Positions 7,081 through 63,964 of a DNA stretch of 64,000 nucleotides are shown piece by piece. Source of the stretch: Acetobacteraceae bacterium. Its GTDB lineage: Bacteria; Pseudomonadota; Alphaproteobacteria; Acetobacterales; Acetobacteraceae. A program made the position numbers and the translations under genes. The stretch spans positions 1-64,000 of the forward strand of contig CANJJS010000017.1 of the NCBI GenBank assembly GCA_947474705.1. Reading direction: 5' to 3'. The notes below the pieces were generated by a model. That model had not been told where the DNA came from. It worked only from the letters and a program-made list of their open reading frames with translations, and did no database searches. Each line of letters starts with the position of its first letter. Position 1 is the first letter of the stretch.

Positions 7081-7625
7081 GTCTTGCCGGCGGGTCTGCC
7101 ACGCGCAGGATTGGCCGAAGCGTAAATCGCCGCGCACTCGACGGTGTCAGGGTCGAGATACGGATAATCCTCGACGATACTGTCCACCGTATCGCCCCCT
7201 TCCAGCCGTCCGAGGATCGCCTCCGCGGTAATCCGCGTGCCCCGGATCGTCGCGGCCCCCCCCATGATGGCGGGATCGTGGACGATCGCTTCCCGCGCGC
7301 GTTCGTAAAGCGCCATGCGGCGGCGAACGCCGGACAACGCCTTGCCCGCGTCGATATGCACCCACTCGCCAATTGAAACGGTCGAAGTATCGCCAGCCTC
7401 CAGCGCGGATTTTAACAGCCGCCAGGCGTCGCCATGCGAAAGCCGGACCTTCGCGGGCATCGATCTCACCAGCGCGAGCGCCAACAGCGCTGTCTCATCC
7501 AACTGACGCCGATGCGTCTTTCGGTCGCGGCGCGCGGGAAGCTGCCGGGACGCAATGGCCTTCCTCACCGCGGATAGTGTGACCCCGGACATGGCGGCCG
7601 CTTCGCGGGGGGTATAGCCGGGCAT
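7062..7625 (-). CDS. DUF433 protein with N-terminal helix-turn-helix, putative antitoxin
   Basis: A 187-residue protein. Residues about 1-60 look like a MerR/excisionase-type helix-turn-helix (YTPREAAAMSGVTLSAVRKAIASRQLPARR). The C-terminal half carries the DUF433 signature (DPAIMGGAATIRGTRITAEAILGRLEGGDTVDSIVEDYP). DUF433 proteins are commonly paired with DUF5615 nucleases, as here, and the HTH suggests self-repression. The next gene overlaps its 3' end. A palindrome, CCTTGA-TT-TCAAGG, lies 19-32 bp upstream of the start and is a plausible operator. The DUF433 call is secure; the antitoxin role is by association. Confidence 0.75.
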   Translation of the reverse strand: MPGYTPREAAAMSGVTLSAVRKAIASRQLPARRDRKTHRRQLDETALLALALVRSMPAKVRLSHGDAWRLLKSALEAGDTSTVSIGEWVHIDAGKALSGVRRRMALYERAREAIVHDPAIMGGAATIRGTRITAEAILGRLEGGDTVDSIVEDYPYLDPDTVECAAIYASANPARGRPAGKTWRHAS

Positions 7626-9408: not shown

Positions 9409-12400
9409 ATGATCTCCGCCGTCTTCGTCGACCGCCCCCGTCTGGCGATCGTCCTCTCGATCCTGCTGACGCTGGCCGGCGTGCTCGCCTACCAGCGGAT
9501 CGCCCTGTCGCAATTCCCCGACATCGTGCCGCCCCAGGTCACGGTGTCCACCAGCTTCCCCGGCGCCTCCGCCGCGGTCGTGGAGGCGACGGTCGCGCAG
9601 GTGCTGGAAGCGGCGGTTGTCGGCGTGGACCGCATGATCTACATGAAGTCCAACAGCGCCAACGACGGTTCCTATTCCTTGGGCGTCACCTTCGAACTCG
9701 GCGTCAATCCGGATATCGCCACCGTCAACGTCAACAACCGGGTCCAGGCCGCGCTCGCCCGATTGCCGCCGGAGGTCCAGCGCCAGGGCGTTACCGTCCG
9801 CAAACGATCCACCGCGATTCTGGAATTTCTTCAGGTCTACAGCGAGACCGGCGAGCATACGCCGCTGTTCATCAGCAATTACGTGACGATCAACGTGCTC
9901 GATCGCCTTGCCCGCACGCCGGGGGTGGGCGACGCGACGATGTTCGGGCGCCTCGATTACGCGATGCGCATCTGGTTCGACATTAACCGGATTGTTTCTC
10001 TCGGACTCGCGCCGTCCGACATCGTCGCCGCGATTCAGCAGCAGAACGTCCAGGCGGCGACCGGCCGTATCGGATCGCGCCCGACTCCGGACTCCACGCA
10101 ATTCCAGTTGAATGTGCGAACCCAGGGGCGGCTGTCGACGCCGGAGGAGTTCGCGGCGATCGTGGTCCGCGCCAATCCGGACGGCTCGGTCCTGCGTGTT
10201 GGCGACGTCGCGCGCGTCGAACTGGGCGCCGCGAACATGGACACGGAGAGCCGGTTGAACGGTAAACCCGCTGTCTCCATCGGCCTTTATCTGGCACCCG
10301 GCGCCAACGCCGTCCGCACCTCCGCCGCCGTCAACGCCACGCTCGCGGACATGCAGACACGCTTTCCCACCGGTTTAAAAGCGCGCGTCTTCTACGACAG
10401 CAGCGGCTTCGTCGCGGCGACGATGGAGGAGGTGAAATCCACCCTCCTCATCGCCTTCGGCCTCGTCGTGCTGGTTGTGTTCGTGTTCCTTGGCAACTGG
10501 CGCGCGACGCTGATCCCGATCGTCGCCATCCCCGTCAGCCTGATCGGCACCATCGCGGTTCTGATGGCCGCCGGGTTCTCGCTGAACACGATTTCGTTGC
10601 TGGCCATGGTGTTGGGCATCGGCATCGTCGTGGACGACGCGATCGTGGTGGTGGAAAACGTGGAACGGGTGATGGCGGAGGAACCCGATCTCGACCCGAA
10701 AACCGCGACCAAGAAGGCGATGGCGCAGATCACCGGTCCCGTGATCGCGATTTCGCTGGTGCTGTTGTCGGTGTTCGTGCCGATCGGGTTCATTCCCGGC
10801 GTGTCGGGGACGCTGTTCCGCCAGTTCGCGGTGACGATCAGCGTGTCGATGCTGATTTCCGCCATCAACGCGCTGACTTTGTCGCCCGCCTTGTGCGGCC
10901 TGTTCTTGCGTCATCACGGCCATCCCCGCGGCCCCCTGGGGTGGATGCTCAGCGGCATCGACGGCATCTGCAACGGCTACGCCGCGATCGTTCGTCCCTT
11001 GCTGCGAGTCTCTCTGCTCAGCATCGCCGTCATCGCCGCCTCCGCCTACGGCATTTTTCATCTGGGACAGCAAACGCCCACCGGCTTTCTGCCCGAAGAA
11101 GACCAGGGTGCCTTCTTCATCGCCGTCCAACTCCCCGACGGCGCCGCTTTGTCGCGCACGCGAGAGGTCGTGACCCAGGTCGAAAACCTGGTCCGCCCGA
11201 TGCCGCAGGTCGAAGGCGTCCTCGCCATCGTCGGCTTCTCCCTGCTCGACGGCGGCAACCAGTCGAACTCCGCCTTCCTGGTCGTCCGCCTGAAACCCTT
11301 CGAAGACCGGACCGGCGCCGCCGATGGCGCCCGCGTGGTGATCGGAAAAGTCTTCGGCGGCGTCAGCCAGATCCGCACCGCCAGCATCTTCCCCTTCAGC
11401 CTGCCGCCGATCATCGGCCTGTCCACCAGCGGCGGCTTCGAATTCCAGTTGGAAAACCTGGAAGGACGCGAACCCGCCGAAATGGCCAGCGTCATGGGCG
11501 GCCTGCTCGGCGCCGCCAACCAGGACCCGCGCCTGAACCGGGTCTTCGCCACCTTCACCGCTTCCAACCCCGCCGTCTGGCTGGATATCGACCGCGACAA
11601 GGCACAGGCGCTGGGCATCGGCGTGTCCGACATCTTCAGCACCCTCCAGGCCGCGCTGGGTGGGTTCTACATCAACGACATGAACCTCTACGGCCGCACC
11701 TGGCAGGTCATCCTCCAGGCCGAGGCCGCCGATCGCGCCGACATGACCGCCTTCGACCGCATCTATGTGCGCGACAAAACCGGCGACATGATCCCGCTGA
11801 AATCCGTCGCCAGCCTGCGCTACGTCGTCGGACCTCAGGTCATCAGCCGCTTCAACAACTACCGCGCCGTCACCGTGAACGGCGGGCCGAAACCCGGCGT
11901 GTCCTCCGGCGACGCCCTGATCGCCATGGACCAGATCGCCGCGCGCACGCTCCCCCAGGGCTACGGCTACGAATGGTCCGGCACCGCGTTTCAGGAACGC
12001 CAGTCGGAGGGCCAGACCTTCGGCATTCTCTCCCTGGCCGTGCTGTTCGCCTATCTGTTCCTGGTCGCGCTGTACGAAAGCTGGATGATTCCTATTCCGG
12101 TGCTGCTGACCGTCACCGTCGGCGTGCTGGGCGCCTTCGCCGGGCTTCTGATTTCCGGCCTATCGCTCGACCTCTACGCCCAGATCGGCATGGTCGTTCT
12201 CATCTCCCTGGCCGCCAAGAACGGCATCCTCATCGTCGAGTTCTCGAAGGAACTCCGCGAAAAAGGCGTCTCCATCCGCGAGGCGGCGCTGTCCGGCGGG
12301 CGCATGCGCATCCGCGCCGTGCTGATGACCTCCATCGCCTTCATCGTCGGCCTCATCCCCCTGGTCTGGGCCGAGGGCGCCGCGATGCTCAGCCGCCGCG

Positions 12401-14094: not shown

Positions 14095-14166
14095 TGGCGG
14101 TCTGCCGTCGCGGTTCATGGCGTATTCGCCGTGGAACGTGCCTCCCATCGCATCGCCGTGCCGTGT

Positions 14167-17637: not shown

Positions 17638-18204
17638 TCACACCCCCCGCGCGGCCGGTTCGACGGGAACAAGCCAGCCCTCGTAAAGGACGATCGGACC
17701 AGTGAGCACATGCCAGATTTCGACATGAAAGTGAAATCGGCCGTCCGTTTCGGCTTCGAAGGCGCGGGACCGTGGCGCCAGCCACGGCGGTAGCGGCACG
17801 CCAAGGCAGCGCCATCCCTGGAACGCCAACGCCAGGCGATTCCCCTCGGGCACCAGCGCCATCGCGAAAGTCAGCGGGCCAAAGCTTTCTCGCAACAGCC
17901 CGGCATGGCGTCCGGTGCCCGCGAACTGCCGGCTCGAAAAGCTTGCGGCTCCGAACCGGCGGGTCCAGATCTCGGCCGCGCCGTCCCGTTCGAACCGGAC
18001 GCTGACCGGCGTATCCGCCGCCGGTCCAGGAAACCCAACGATCGCCCCCGCGAGCCGGGCCAATAATCCGGTCCCGCGCTCCACGCGCGCGCGCCCCTCA
18101 GCCAGAACCACGCCGTCGTGCAGGTCCCGGATCGCGATCGGCAGCCCATCCCACGCCGCGCCCAACACCCGGCGATACAGGCCATCGCCCTTGGCGCCGG
18201 TCAT
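17638..18204 (-). CDS. DUF4166 domain protein
   Basis: A 188-residue protein of the DUF4166 type: GLYRRVLGAAWDGLPIAIRDLHDG at the start, then VGFPGPAADTPVSVRFERDG and ETDGRFHFHVEIWHVLTGPIVLYEGWL at the end. DUF4166 domains are of unknown function and are often fused to or near saccharopine-dehydrogenase-like or lipid genes; that context is not seen here. The ATG at 18204 overlaps the mazG stop (ATGA), which fixes the start and indicates coupling. No signal peptide or membrane helix. Confidence 0.7.
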   Translation of the reverse strand: MTGAKGDGLYRRVLGAAWDGLPIAIRDLHDGVVLAEGRARVERGTGLLARLAGAIVGFPGPAADTPVSVRFERDGAAEIWTRRFGAASFSSRQFAGTGRHAGLLRESFGPLTFAMALVPEGNRLALAFQGWRCLGVPLPPWLAPRSRAFEAETDGRFHFHVEIWHVLTGPIVLYEGWLVPVEPAARGV

Positions 18205-22291: not shown

Positions 22292-22976
22292 CGAAATCCG
22301 GCCAAAGAACATCGAGGAAGACCAGCTCCGCGTAGGCGGCCTGCCACAACAGAAAATTCGACAGGCGGCGCTCCCCGGATGTGCGGATGATCAGGTCGGG
22401 ATCGGGCATCTCCGCGGTGGCGAGAAACCCGGCGAACACCTGCTCGCTCAGTTGCGCGGGATCCAACAACCCGTCCCGGACCGCGATCGCGGCGGCTTTC
22501 GCGGCATCGACGATTTCCGCGCGGGCGCCATAAGATAAGGCGATGGTCAGGTTCAGCCGGGTGTTATGGGTCGTATCTCGCTCCGCGTCGCGCAGATCGC
22601 GCTGAATCCCGTCGTCGAACCGGCAGCGGTCGCCAATGAACCGCAGACGGACCCCGGTGGCTTTCAGCTCCGCGATCTCGGTCCGCAAATAACTGCGCAA
22701 CAGACCGGTCAAATCCAGCACCTCGTCCGCCGGACGGCGCCAGTTTTCGCTGCTGAACGCGTAAATCGTCAGCCACTCCACCCCCTGCGCGATCGCCGCC
22801 TCGATCGTCCGCCGCACCGCGCGCGCCCCCTCCCGATGCCCCGCGATCCTCGGCAAATGGCGCGCGGCGGCCCAACGGCCATTCCCGTCCATGATGACGG
22901 CGACATGGACCGGCGGCGGCTCGAGACCGCCCGGCTGGGATCGCCGCGCGGCGGCGGCTTGGGTGGAGGTCGACAT
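22218..22976 (-). CDS. uppS: Undecaprenyl diphosphate synthase (di-trans,poly-cis)
   Basis: Cis-prenyltransferase that elongates farnesyl diphosphate to the C55 carrier lipid for peptidoglycan and polysaccharide synthesis. The 252-residue protein carries VAVIMDGNGRWA with the catalytic Asp30, GHREGARAVRRTIEAA, YAFSSENWRRP and the C-terminal IIRTSGERRLSNFLLWQAAYAELVFLDVLWPDF. It has a short 20-residue basic N-terminal extension. It is 9 bp from frr upstream and overlaps the start of cdsA downstream. Confidence 0.96.
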   Translation of the reverse strand: MSTSTQAAAARRSQPGGLEPPPVHVAVIMDGNGRWAAARHLPRIAGHREGARAVRRTIEAAIAQGVEWLTIYAFSSENWRRPADEVLDLTGLLRSYLRTEIAELKATGVRLRFIGDRCRFDDGIQRDLRDAERDTTHNTRLNLTIALSYGARAEIVDAAKAAAIAVRDGLLDPAQLSEQVFAGFLATAEMPDPDLIIRTSGERRLSNFLLWQAAYAELVFLDVLWPDFDAAHFAAALAEFARRERRFGARPG

Positions 22977-58489: not shown

Positions 58490-59254
58490 ATGTCCCAACC
58501 CGCCCCCCGGACGTTTCTTGTCACCGGCGCCGCCAGCGGCATTGGCGCCGCGATTTGTCGCGCCGTCGCCGCGCCCAATGTCGCGCTGCTGATCCACACC
58601 CGCCGCAACCGCGACGGCGCCGAGGCCGTGGCCCGGACCGCGCGGGCGGCCGGGGCGGAGACGGAGGTTGTGCTGGCGGACCTCGTTGAACCCGCGGCGG
58701 CCGGCGTTCTGGTCGAACGGGCGCTGGCGCGGTTCGGGCGGCTGGATGTGCTGGTGTCCAACGCGGGATTCGCGGACCGGACGCCGGTCGCGGCGTTGAC
58801 GGACGCGGCGATGACGGCGTCGATGGAGGCGATTCAAGGAGCATTCTTTCGACTCGCGCGCGCGGCTATTCCACATTTACGGGCCGGAATCGATCCGCGC
58901 GTGGTCGCGGTGTCCAGTTTCGTCGCCCACACCTGGCGGACGAATGTCGCGACGTTTCCCGCCTCCGCGGCGGCGAAGGCGGGGTTGGAGGCGCTGGTGC
59001 GCGCGCTGGCGGTCGAACTGGGCCCGGACCGCGTGGCGGTCAACGCGGTGGTGCCGGGGTTCATTCGCAAGGACAGCGGCGCGCACCGGGCGATCGGTCC
59101 GGCGGCGCTCGCCGATCAGACCGTCCATATCCCGATGGGGCGGATTGGGTTACCGGAGGATGTGGCGGCGGCGGTGGCGTTTTTGGCCTCGCCCGCCGCC
59201 GGTTACATCACGGGACAGACCTTGCATGTCGATGGCGGGATCGTCATGCGATAG
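58490..59254 (+). CDS. SDR-family protein with altered catalytic tyrosine
   Basis: A 254-residue short-chain dehydrogenase fold: cofactor motif TGAASGIG, SNAG, a serine in VSSFVAH, and the C-terminal GRIGLPEDVAAAVAFLASPAAGYITGQTLHVDGGIVMR of FabG-like members. At the YxxxK position the sequence is SAAAK (S159, K163): the catalytic tyrosine is replaced by serine, read clearly as TCC GCG GCG GCG AAG. Either the protein is not a classical SDR enzyme or another residue serves. Monocistronic and divergent from the Bug gene; convergent with the XrtA locus. Confidence 0.85.
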   Translation: MSQPAPRTFLVTGAASGIGAAICRAVAAPNVALLIHTRRNRDGAEAVARTARAAGAETEVVLADLVEPAAAGVLVERALARFGRLDVLVSNAGFADRTPVAALTDAAMTASMEAIQGAFFRLARAAIPHLRAGIDPRVVAVSSFVAHTWRTNVATFPASAAAKAGLEALVRALAVELGPDRVAVNAVVPGFIRKDSGAHRAIGPAALADQTVHIPMGRIGLPEDVAAAVAFLASPAAGYITGQTLHVDGGIVMR

Positions 59255-59275: not shown

Positions 59276-60824
59276 TCACCGCGCCGCCCCGCCGATCGCC
59301 CGCGTTTGGGCATCCACCGTTTGGGCGGTCCCGGCGATCCGGGACAGCCGGTTTTCGATATCCTTGCGGCGGTTCACATCGACGCCAGCCCAGTCGACGG
59401 CCGGGGTGAGGGTGACGAGGACGGGGTTCTGGGACAGGCCGGTCAGGCTGGTGCGCGCCAGTTTCAGGCGCAGCGCCATGCCCGGCAGCGTGCGCTCGCC
59501 GTCGATCCAGAGCGCGGTGGCGGCGACGAAGGCGGGTTTGTTGGAACGCACGAGGCGCCAGCCATGGGCTGAGGCGCCTGCTTCGTCGGCCAAAGGTGTT
59601 TCGGTGATATCGTCGGCGTCCGGCGCGCGTGTCAGGCGGCGGCGGGCGGTGTTGATCGGCGCGGCGGTGGCGCGGCGGGAGAAGACGTCGACGCGGACCG
59701 TCAGGGGCAGCCCGCCGCAGACGACTCGTTGCGAGAGGGCGGTGTCCTCGGCCCCGGGGATCGGGCTGGCGGGCCCGCTCGCGACGCAGGCCGGGCCAAG
59801 GTCGATCGGGCGCAGGACCCCGGCGGCGATGCTGGGGGGCGCGTTGAACCCGGCGACGGCGAGCGGTCCCATGGCGGCGAGCGCGGCGGTGGCGAGGCCC
59901 GCGATCAGACCCCGGCGGGCGAGATTCGGCGTGGGGATCATGGGCGGGCCGGCCGCGGCCTCGGGCAAGGTGTCCTCGCGGAATGGCAGGCCAAGGAAGG
60001 TCAGCAGCAGAATGACGAAGGAGAAGAAGAGCCAGCCATAGACCAGGTGGTCGGCCGCGGCGGCTTCGGCGCTGCCCATGACGTGGCCGAGCCAGACGAT
60101 GCCAAGGGCGCGGATGCCGTTGGCGACGATGGGGACGGCGATCGAGACCGCGACGAAGGCCGCGCGCCGGACCGGGCTCCGGTACATCAGGATGGCATAG
60201 AGGGCGCCGAAGGCGATGGAGGCGATAAGGAAGCGCAGCCCGGCGCAGGCTTCCGCGACGTAGAACACGCCTTCCGGGATTTCGATGATGTAGCCGTCGA
60301 TATAGGCGGGAAAGCCAAGGAAGCCGACGCCGATCGCGATGAACCAGGCGGTGATGTCCTGCAGCCGGGGGGTCAGGAACTCGCCGAAGGGGACGAGGAA
60401 ATACAGATAGAGCAGGGGACCCAGGACGGCGCGGAACAGGCGGGGGCCGAGCATGGCGAGGCACAGGACCTCGAAGAAGCTGACGACCGCGAGTTGGCGT
60501 CCTTCCATGATGCCCAGACGCTCGGCGGCGAGCCAGGCGGCGGCGGCGGGCAGCGCGAGGAGGGCGGCGGCGGGGCAGGGGGCGGCGGCCAGGCCGCGCA
60601 GCGCGGGGCTGCGGTCCCAGATCAGATAGAGCGCGATCGGGATGACCAGGGCGCAGTGGTTATAGGCCGTGGAGTCGATCCAGGTGCGGACGGCGGCGCC
60701 GATTTCGGCCGGGAACAGGATGGCGATGGCGGCGGTGCCGATGGCGAGTCCAGCCCAGGCGCCGCGCAGCGCGGCGATGGTCTGGTGCGGGGGGGGGGGC
60801 GTGCGTGGCCGCGGATTCGCTCAT
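59276..60824 (-). CDS. xrtA: Exosortase A fused to EpsI domain, frame interrupted at a C11 tract
   Basis: Exosortase of the XrtA type, an inner-membrane transpeptidase-like enzyme processing PEP-CTERM proteins. The intact 410-residue ORF starts only at an internal ATG (60508). The ATG at 60824 overlaps the glycosyltransferase stop (ATGA) and encodes MSESAATHAPPP; then 11 C (60789-60799) shift the frame. With 10 C the frame joins HQTIAALRGAWAGLAIG... and gives 515 residues with the missing first helices. Catalytic Cys193 (AEACAGLRF), Arg238 (NGIRALGIV) and His259 (DHLVYGWLFF) are present in corrected numbering. After about residue 285 a soluble EpsI domain is fused (NLARRGLIAGLAT... VDVFSRR...TLPGMALRLKLARTSL). 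XrtA assignment rests on the neighbours. Frame error or phase-variable switch: see findings. Confidence 0.82.
60789..60799. repeat. Homopolymer tract of 11 G (C11 on the coding strand)
   Basis: TGC, then 11 G, then CGTGCG on the plus strand. It is the longest mononucleotide run I noticed in the window. It lies 25-35 nt into the exosortase gene, right after its start. Slipped-strand mispairing at such tracts is the classic mechanism of phase variation. It is also a common place for sequencing or assembly errors. Confidence 0.9.
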
Positions 60825-62041
60825 GGGTTGGCTCCGTGGGGGCGCATCAGGTCGTCGAAGCCGCTGAGGCATGCGTCCCAGTCGTAGTGTTCCAGTATCA
60901 GGCGGCGGGCGGCGGTGGAGAGGGCGGCGCGTTCGGCGGCGGAATCGGGGTGCGCCAGGCGGATGGCGGCGGCGGCGATCGCGGCGGCGTCTTCGGCCAG
61001 CACCAGGTCGCGGCCGGGCTGGGCGTCGATGCCCTCCCACGCGCCAGAGGTGACGATGACGGGTTTGGCCATGGCCATTGCTTCCAGGACCTTGTTTTGA
61101 ATGCCGCAGGCGATCCGCATCGGCGCGACGGCGGCGATGGCGTGCTGGACATAGGGGCGGACGTCGGGGACGCGTCCCGTGACGGAGACGCCGTCGAGGC
61201 TGGCCAGGCGTTTGACCTCGTCGGCGGGGTTGCCGCCGACGATCTGGAAGGCGGCGGCGGGCAGGGATTGGCGGACGATGGGCAGGATCGTTTCGGCGAA
61301 CCAGACGGCGGCGTCGATGTTGGGCCGGTAGTCCATGGTGCCGGTGAAGACGAAGGTGGGGTTCGCCGGGTCGAAGGGGGCGGGGAAGCTGTGCGCGGGG
61401 CTGAAATACCGGTGATCGACGCCGCAACTGATGCCGCGGATTTTGGCGGCGGCCTCGGGCACATGGGCGCGGAACAGGCGGGCCTCGGTTTCGGTGACGA
61501 GGATGGACTGGTCGCACTCCAGCGCCACGCGGCGTTCCAGGCGGCGGACCTGGCGCCATTCGCGGCGGTAGACCAGGTTCATGGGGAAGCGGGATGTTTC
61601 GGAGTAAGACAGGAATTTCTCGGAATCGACATCGCCCAGCTCGACGATGCGCGTCCCCGTCGGCGGCAGGTCGAGGATGTATGGCGCCATGTTGGAGGAG
61701 TTCACGAATGTCATTTCCGGTTTGACCTCGGTCATCACTCGTTCGACCCAGCGCCGCAGGCCGCGATCGCGGAAGAAGGTCACGCTGAGCGGTTCGTTGG
61801 TCAGCAGGCCGGTGGCGCAGGCGAATTTGGCGCGGTCGCGATTCAGCGGGGCGGTGTACATGTCCTTGCAGAGGGCGCGGACGGTCTCGATGTGCTGGTT
61901 ATCGGCGGGGTCGTCGATCAGGCAGCCGAAATGCACGTCGTACCATTTGGTCAAATAGTTCAGGATGTGCCAGTTGCGGATCTTCTCGCCCTTGATCAGG
62001 GGGTAGGGCAGGCGCTGCATCAGGAAAAGCAGGTTGGGCAT
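60821..62041 (-). CDS. XrtA-system glycosyltransferase (TIGR03087-type)
   Basis: A 406-residue GT-B glycosyltransferase of the PEP-CTERM/XrtA exopolysaccharide group. The start is the ATG at 62041 (MPNLLFLMQRLPYPLIKGEKIRNWHIL), which matches the family N-terminus; the ORF track's earlier start is a TTG overlapping the FemAB gene. IRGISCGVDHRYFSP and FVFTGTMDYRPNIDAAVWFAETILP, with GRVPDVRPYVQHAIAAVAPMRIACGIQNKVLEAMAMAKPVI, are the nucleotide-sugar binding region. It probably adds a sugar during assembly of the exosortase-linked exopolysaccharide. Stop overlaps the exosortase start. Confidence 0.88.
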   Translation of the reverse strand: MPNLLFLMQRLPYPLIKGEKIRNWHILNYLTKWYDVHFGCLIDDPADNQHIETVRALCKDMYTAPLNRDRAKFACATGLLTNEPLSVTFFRDRGLRRWVERVMTEVKPEMTFVNSSNMAPYILDLPPTGTRIVELGDVDSEKFLSYSETSRFPMNLVYRREWRQVRRLERRVALECDQSILVTETEARLFRAHVPEAAAKIRGISCGVDHRYFSPAHSFPAPFDPANPTFVFTGTMDYRPNIDAAVWFAETILPIVRQSLPAAAFQIVGGNPADEVKRLASLDGVSVTGRVPDVRPYVQHAIAAVAPMRIACGIQNKVLEAMAMAKPVIVTSGAWEGIDAQPGRDLVLAEDAAAIAAAAIRLAHPDSAAERAALSTAARRLILEHYDWDACLSGFDDLMRPHGANP

Positions 62042-62045
62042 GGGG

Positions 62046-63086
62046 TCAGCCAAGGCCGCGTACGATCGGCGGGCCCAGTAAATTGGCCACCGGGAGCGGT
62101 AGCTTTTTCCACGCGGCGATGAACAGCCGGTATTTCGGGTTCAACGGATTGTGGTCGGGGATCGAGGCCCCGGGCGCGAGCAAATAGCGGTAGCGCAGCG
62201 GCGCGGCGGTAAACCCCCAGTTCTTTTTGAAATCGTGCGCGCCGGTGCCGAGTTTGCTGCGGCCGAAATCGAACAGGCGATAGCCGCGTTCGGCGGCGCG
62301 GCGCATGACTTCCCAGTACATGAAATCGTTGCCCGCCCGGCCGCGGGCGGCCAGGGTGCCGCCGCCGTAATAGGGCAGGACCTCCTCGCGAAAATAGAAA
62401 TTCATGACGGAGGCGATGGCGGTTTCGCCGTCCAGGATCGTCACGGTGTCGCAATCGGGGCCGAACGCCTCCGCCAGAATGGAAAAATAGCGGCGGGAGA
62501 AGACCGGGGTGCCAAGGTTGCGGACGCTCTCGGCGTAGATGCCGTGCAGGCGGCCGGTGTCGCGATCGACGACGGAGGTCAGGTTGTTCGAAATCCCCTT
62601 GCGGACCATCGCGCGCTGCTTGCGCGGAATGGCCTTCATGTTCTTGTCGTGATCCGCCTCGATCGGTTTCCGGAACGTCACATACAGATCCGGCCGTTCC
62701 ATCCACGCGCCCTGTGCGGGGCCGTCGGTGTCGCGGACACGGAACTCCACGGCCGAGGCACCGGATTTTGCCAGCAGCGCCGCGGCGTGCGCGGTCAGGG
62801 CGGATTCGGTCTCCGGGTCCACGGCCAGCGGGCCGCCGTAGACGCAGAAGGGGACCGATATGAACGTGTCGCCGAACAGCAAGGTTTTGACGCGCGCCAA
62901 GGGCAGGACCCCCACGATCGCGCCGTCGCGCTCAGCGTAGACGTAGTGCGTGGTGTGGCCGAAGGCTTTCTCGACGATGCCGGCCCATGCGGAGAGGTGG
63001 AAAAAAGTGCCGTTCGGGTGGGCCCGGACGAAACCATCCCAGGCCGCGGCGGAGGCGGTGTCGAGAGGGCGGATCGCGAGGGGCAT
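62046..63086 (-). CDS. FemAB-like XrtA/PEP-CTERM-associated acyltransferase
   Basis: A 346-residue GNAT/FemAB-fold protein. The start is the ATG at 63086 (MPLAIRPLDTASAAAWDGFVRAHPNGTFFHLSAWAGIVEKAFG), overlapping the deacetylase stop by one base; the longer ORF is a shadow. MKAIPRKQRAMVRKGI and FDFGRSKLGTGAHDFKKNWGF are the hallmark motifs of this family. FemAB proteins transfer amino acids from aminoacyl-tRNA to peptidoglycan-like acceptors; in XrtA loci the acceptor is unknown and may be the exopolysaccharide or its lipid carrier. Confidence 0.88.
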   Translation of the reverse strand: MPLAIRPLDTASAAAWDGFVRAHPNGTFFHLSAWAGIVEKAFGHTTHYVYAERDGAIVGVLPLARVKTLLFGDTFISVPFCVYGGPLAVDPETESALTAHAAALLAKSGASAVEFRVRDTDGPAQGAWMERPDLYVTFRKPIEADHDKNMKAIPRKQRAMVRKGISNNLTSVVDRDTGRLHGIYAESVRNLGTPVFSRRYFSILAEAFGPDCDTVTILDGETAIASVMNFYFREEVLPYYGGGTLAARGRAGNDFMYWEVMRRAAERGYRLFDFGRSKLGTGAHDFKKNWGFTAAPLRYRYLLAPGASIPDHNPLNPKYRLFIAAWKKLPLPVANLLGPPIVRGLG

Positions 63087-63964
63087 CAGGCGGCGGCGGA
63101 CTGGTGGATCGGTGGGCGCGTCCGGGCGGGCAGCAGATCCGCGTAGACATTGTCCATGCGCCCCCAGGCGAAGCGGCGCAGGATATCGTCCAGATCGGCC
63201 TCCATGCGCGACAGGTTCGTGTAGTGACGCAGGCGGGATTTCCACCCGGCGCCGGGAATCCTCGGTTGGTCCTGGTCGATCTCCCAGGGATGGAAATAGA
63301 AGATGCCGGGTTGCCGGTCGGTTTCGTGCACGCGAGCCAGGCCAAGGCGATACAGGAACGAGGGCAGGAGCCGGAAATAGCCGCCGCCGGAGCACGGCCA
63401 GTTGCGTCCGAAGGCGCGGACGGTGGTCATCGGGATCTCCCAGAACCCATCGCCATCGGGTTGAAAGGGCGTTCGCGACGCGCCGGGCATGCCGTAAAGG
63501 TCGTGCGCGATCGGGTTGATGCTGGAGCTGTAGCGATGGCCGGTCTCGCGCAGTACGCCGAACGCCCAAAGGTTGCGCGCGCCGATCGAGAAAGTCGCGG
63601 CGCGGTAACCGGCGATTTCGACGCCGCCGATGTCTTCCAGCGTTGCCTTGGCGCGGCTGACGTCCTGGCGGAATTCCTCGGGGTTCTGGCTGTCGGCGCG
63701 GGTGTGATCCCAGCCGTGGCTGGCGAGTTCGTGCCCGGCGGCGACGATGCGGCGGACCATCGCGGGGTGACGCTCGGCGATCCAGCCCAGCGTGAAGAAC
63801 GTGGCCTTAACATCCGCGCGGTCGAACTGGGCCAGGATGCGATCGACGTTGGCCTCGACACGGCGGGGAAAACCGTCCCACTCCGCGCGGGAGACGCACC
63901 CGGCGAAGGCCTGGACCTGGAAATAGTCCTCCACATCGACCGTCATGGCATTGCGGATCGTCAT
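63086..63964 (-). CDS. XrtA-system polysaccharide deacetylase (DUF3473)
   Basis: A 292-residue NodB-type deacetylase with the C-terminal DUF3473 extension typical of PEP-CTERM loci. Motif 1 TVDVEDYF (the ED variant), motif 2 HELASHGWDHT with the zinc histidines, motif 3 IAGYRAATFSI, then GGYFRLLPSFLYRLGLARV and GIFYFHPWEID. It likely removes acetyl groups from the polymer or lipid-linked sugar. Start overlaps the stop of the next upstream gene (ATGA), so the whole locus is one translationally coupled operon. Confidence 0.92.
   Translation of the reverse strand: MTIRNAMTVDVEDYFQVQAFAGCVSRAEWDGFPRRVEANVDRILAQFDRADVKATFFTLGWIAERHPAMVRRIVAAGHELASHGWDHTRADSQNPEEFRQDVSRAKATLEDIGGVEIAGYRAATFSIGARNLWAFGVLRETGHRYSSSINPIAHDLYGMPGASRTPFQPDGDGFWEIPMTTVRAFGRNWPCSGGGYFRLLPSFLYRLGLARVHETDRQPGIFYFHPWEIDQDQPRIPGAGWKSRLRHYTNLSRMEADLDDILRRFAWGRMDNVYADLLPARTRPPIHQSAAA

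Follow-up and report, generated by a model that had tools for sequence, protein, structure and literature searches.

The question raised by this locus is whether a poly-C run in the first codons of an exosortase gene (xrtA) is a phase-variable switch, as a sequence-only reading had proposed, or an incidental tract whose length has changed by one base. The second answer is the probable one: one-base length noise, of biological or technical origin, in a tract that is incidental to an otherwise working xrtA, rather than a dedicated switch. The analysis covered the window (the whole stretch of 64 kb in which the gene lies), the source genome (5.48 Mb in 205 contigs) and relatives from Rhodopila and other Acetobacteraceae MAGs, all of which are other species represented by one genome per species.

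The tract and the exosortase gene that it interrupts

Direct reading of the minus strand gives a run of exactly 11 C, which sits 3' of eight xrtA codons and one G and spans codons 9-12 (Table 1). The start codon, an ATG at 60824, shares bases with the stop codon of the glycosyltransferase gene before it (ATGA), and the frame that it opens in the assembly ends after 54 residues at a stop codon at 60660-60662. According to the frame analysis, the tract is one base above its in-frame length (modulo 3), so that the ATG frame and the exosortase frame are offset by one base at the tract and a change in its length toggles between them; with 10 C, an in-frame tract, a protein of 515 residues would be encoded. 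Between the glycosyltransferase stop and 59279, the exosortase frame itself holds 514 codons without interruption, the earliest ATG, GTG or TTG among them being the ATG at 60508. On the overlapping start, the break past codon 8 with its early stop near 60660, the 515-residue product of a 10-C tract and the lack of any ATG, GTG or TTG between the tract and 60508, the sequence-only reading was borne out. The ATG at 60508 was considered as the true start and rejected, because in every readable relative the start lies further upstream, and because the segment that would be lost is conserved.

As assembled, the exosortase frame matches the exosortase A (XrtA) model TIGR03109 with 283.3 bits (cutoff, 208 bits) over model positions 3-260 of 261, and the part from the ATG at 60508 alone scores 217.6 bits over positions 87-260. 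The N-terminal 88 residues add about 66 bits to the match, and because including this startless segment behind the tract both lengthens and raises it, the segment is true exosortase sequence. The 88 severed residues are 74% identical to those of the closest relative (G042), and the following part is 77% identical. The motifs CAGLRF, NGIRAL and DHLVYGW are found at frame residues 192, 234 and 257, and from family knowledge we take them to hold the catalytic Cys, Arg and His of the transmembrane core. No second lesion was found across the 514 codons. The earlier description of the product as an exosortase-EpsI fusion holds for the exosortase, and the EpsI label is not confirmed: the C-terminal part finds no Pfam or NCBIfam match even at E≤1, and among the relatives one alone matches DUF3485/EpsI, weakly (E=0.011).

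The gene closes an operon of intact XrtA-system genes, and its neighbor at 58490-59254 lies on the opposite strand; because xrtA is the last gene, the break at the tract would affect xrtA alone. Of further XrtA-associated families, TIGR03015 and TIGR03016 have matches that fall just under the cutoff. A genome-wide search found no second exosortase, and the idea that another such enzyme makes xrtA dispensable was discarded, xrtA being the only one in the genome. PEP-CTERM matches number 43, which ranks second among 33 genus genomes. A near-complete relative (G044) has no exosortase match at E≤1e-40 and no PEP-CTERM match, which suggests that enzyme and substrates were lost or are absent together. 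Because xrtA is the sole exosortase, with 43 PEP-CTERM matches beside it, and G044 has neither, its function is likely recent or current. From its sequence, we infer that xrtA would be a working exosortase A gene but for the change in tract length; a long-dead gene would not be expected to look like this, with a single defect and a conserved segment behind it.

Table 1. Features of the xrtA locus (positions in the window) and further genes of the genome with long C/G runs.
Feature	Position	Strand	Evidence or score
11-C homopolymer tract, xrtA codons 9-12	60789..60799	-	direct reading and frame analysis
Assembled xrtA ATG frame: 8 exosortase codons, then out-of-frame residues, 54 aa	60660..60824	-	
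Exosortase frame (xrtA), 514 codons open, startless before 60508	59276..60820	-	TIGR03109, 283 bits
Conserved XrtA N-terminal part, 88 residues, severed from start by tract	60509..60772	-	
PEP-CTERM/XrtA-system glycosyltransferase, TIGR03087, intact, stop overlaps xrtA ATG	60821..62053	-	465.7 bits, cutoff 316.65
FemAB family XrtA-associated protein, TIGR03019, intact	62046..63086	-	above cutoff
XrtA-system polysaccharide deacetylase, TIGR03006, intact	63086..63964	-	above cutoff
cheA-like gene, 11-C run in Pro-rich linker, out of frame	L097:2077-4786; contig C47, tract 18015-18025		
DUF642 PEP-CTERM protein gene, 14-C run, out of frame	L105:2383-3103; contig C88, tract 10857-10870		
Polytopic membrane protein gene, 10-C run, out of frame	L099; contig C54, tract 14123-14132	-	
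EpmA/lysyl-tRNA-synthetase-like gene, ATG GCA CCG then 9 C, in frame	L086; contig C22, tract 22546-22554	-	identified by eye

Long C/G runs in relatives and across the genome

All 28 of the 28 homologues with a readable 5' part have an unbroken N-terminus, an in-frame start and no C-run longer than 6 in the leader. The start codon is ATG in 27 of them and likely GTG in one (L003), and it is placed about 41-56 residues upstream of a conserved STAY motif; the leader itself is conserved neither in sequence nor in length. Alignment of the tract in related genomes, which the sequence-only reading had proposed as a check, went against the switch: none of the relatives carries the tract. All of them belong to other species, and across the aligned part the best reaches 64% identity. 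Because it is absent from their unconserved leaders, the tract is best seen as specific to this lineage and as lying in weakly constrained sequence.

In the 64 kb window, the xrtA tract is the sole run of at least 9, and 8-C words occur here and once at 7256. All C/G runs of at least 9 in the genome were located and their regions examined for frame. Runs of at least 11 number 6, one of which sits at the end of a contig, where a first-order Markov model of the genome predicts about 12; the 11-C run itself is not beyond chance, and what is notable is its position and its effect on the frame. Runs of 6-9 were checked at the tract loci and in a further 464 kb or so, and in coding sequence the frame is kept at runs of 6-8 in 48 clear cases and at runs of 9 in five. 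Flags of a shift at lengths 6-7 looked like gene boundaries or two well-scoring frames, and the automatic classifier labeled the xrtA tract "inframe" or "edge", the upstream 180 bases being glycosyltransferase, so that this tract was judged by hand. General miscalling of homopolymers was rejected, because coding C/G runs of 6-9 are without a clear frame break.

At coding runs of at least 10, four of six are out of frame, each by the equivalent of one extra base in the same direction, and frames at such runs in this assembly are thus close to random. The two that remain in frame, both of 10, are in an RNase E linker and in a transposase-like gene identified by eye. Besides xrtA, the broken genes are a cheA-like gene (with Hpt, H-kinase_dim, HATPase, CheW and response regulator domains), a DUF642 PEP-CTERM protein gene, whose run lies 75 bases 3' of an ATG with a good Shine-Dalgarno sequence and before the signal peptide, and a polytopic membrane protein gene, whose run lies 37 bases past the likely ATG and whose product has no Pfam match and is present in 14 of the 33 genomes, source genome included. 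The xrtA tract is of a size that cells and sequencing pipelines alike tend to miscount, and near-random frames would be expected of unstable or miscalled tracts located by chance in tolerant places such as leaders and Pro-rich linkers. Three of the four broken tracts (xrtA, DUF642 and the membrane protein, all broken near the start) fall within the first ~26 codons, with the cheA-like gene broken mid-gene; a crude, post hoc binomial estimate puts the chance of three of six coding tracts lying that early at about 1%, a figure uncorrected for the weak constraint on leaders, which are the least constrained part of genes. Displacement of four cases in the same direction has a two-sided chance of 1 in 8 and hints at a systematic cause, for which four cases are too few.

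Among about forty sampled tracts of at least 10 in six other genus genomes, most lie outside genes, and of the coding ones three keep the frame, with no more than one broken, in an IS66-like gene. The source genome may hence differ from its relatives in broken tracts, a difference that is not significant with so few coding tracts. Two contigs, C108 and C60, begin in poly-C or poly-G (L236:1-40 and L237:1-25), the former with 24 C, and because contigs start in them, such runs are taken as places where the assembly breaks. mutS and mutL are both present with open frames, and loss of mismatch repair as the source of unstable tracts was set aside on these grounds.

Explanations for the broken frame

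The explanation that fits best, one-base length noise, would run as follows: a long, mutation-prone poly-C run happens to lie in the unconserved N-terminal leader of xrtA, and a one-base change in the length of this run may have shifted the frame of the assembled copy. In a cell with 11 C, a ribosome starting at the ATG at 60824 would end after 54 residues and no exosortase would be made, PEP-CTERM proteins would stay unprocessed and the other genes of the operon would be unaffected, and with an in-frame tract length the complete exosortase would be made. Because other long coding C-runs are broken likewise, the xrtA break needs no selected switch, and the break in the cheA-like linker, in the same direction, points to general length noise or to a length-calling artefact. 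Against length noise count the early position of three of the four broken tracts, as in contingency loci, the fact that one of these lies in a PEP-CTERM protein gene, which makes a functional theme conceivable, and the scarcity of broken coding runs (at most one) among the tracts of the six genus genomes. If noise is the cause, slipped-strand mispairing in the sequenced cells is a good possibility for its origin, and we infer that part of the population would then carry a working in-frame form, absent selection for switching.

A purely technical origin of the same noise, in library preparation, sequencing or assembly, with the real tract in frame and xrtA normal, is a possibility to be held more tentatively; of all the readings, it is the one under which the finding would be void. 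The intact functional context is consistent with it, as are the shared direction of the four displacements, the intact mutS and mutL, which give no grounds to expect unusually unstable tracts in cells, and the contigs that start in poly-G or poly-C. It is opposed by the lack of a clear break at coding runs of 6-9, which indicates that lengths are not generally miscalled, and by the two coding runs of 10 that are in frame. Should length noise of either kind be the answer, the locus would be a warning against taking coding C-runs of at least 10 in draft genomes for switches or lost genes before the reads have been consulted.

An evolved contingency locus, in which the poly-C run is kept since its slippage toggles the exosortase at high frequency, and with it how some 40 surface proteins are sorted, appears unlikely. 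The parts of this proposal that stood are the slip-prone length of the tract, its place in codons 9-12 and the one-base change that would join the ATG to a complete XrtA; the position of xrtA at the end of its operon, which spares other genes any polar effect, and the similar out-of-frame tracts near the starts of the DUF642 PEP-CTERM and membrane protein genes speak for it as well. The parts that did not stand are the tract in relatives, all of them other species, and the genome-wide excess of runs, and the cheA-like gene is broken likewise inside a linker, where switching makes little sense. An extension to a two-level surface system, in which slippage in xrtA would toggle the sorting of about 40 PEP-CTERM proteins together and the 14-C tract would toggle the DUF642 protein alone, is more doubtful still. 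A real and reversible switch would, as far as the searched literature shows, make this the first phase-variable exosortase, with a single slipping tract governing how dozens of proteins are displayed at the surface as well as the link to exopolysaccharide. The literature search found no published work joining exosortase with phase variation in the sense of a switch, and a possible precedent in Acetobacter polE was not confirmed, the Kozakia paper reporting no frameshift at a homopolymer.

Fixed loss, with xrtA a young pseudogene in the lineage, would agree with the broken frame and the lack of a usable start before 60508, and it is very improbable given the absence of a further lesion in 514 codons, the conserved N-terminal segment and the 43 retained PEP-CTERM matches, compared with zero in G044, which has no exosortase match. 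Bypass of the break, by +1 ribosomal frameshifting on CCC-C or by transcriptional slippage yielding a little exosortase from the 11-C gene, is hardly to be expected: the 11-C form does need a +1 shift on CCC CCC CCC, and in E. coli as much as 1% of +1 shift occurs at a CCC-C adjacent to the start codon (PMC4519876), but this figure applies to the second codon, the most shift-prone place, and no relative uses such a device.

Comparison with known systems

The gene resembles exosortase A of PEP-CTERM sorting (XrtA, TIGR03109) in its near full-length match and its Cys/Arg/His motifs, and the locus resembles other XrtA systems in its XrtA-type gene cluster and the PEP-CTERM proteins in the genome; it differs in that the frame of the copy assembled here is not connected to a start codon. 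With the poly-G/C contingency loci of Neisseria and Campylobacter (PMC5084427), it shares an 11-C run in the first codons, a frame broken or restored by a one-base change and a gene that acts at the cell surface. Typical of such loci is a run of about 8 or more C/G, placed in a promoter or early in the coding sequence, as is found here, and their tracts are kept or enriched beyond chance, in contrast to this tract, which is absent from relatives and lies in a genome with no excess of tracts, where other broken tracts include that of the cheA-like linker. For the homopolymer slippage variants and artefacts of draft genomes (cf. Tatajuba, PMC8808543), which are inseparable from one another here from the assembly alone, the likeness lies in single-base differences at runs of at least 10 and in a frame that is kept at shorter runs.
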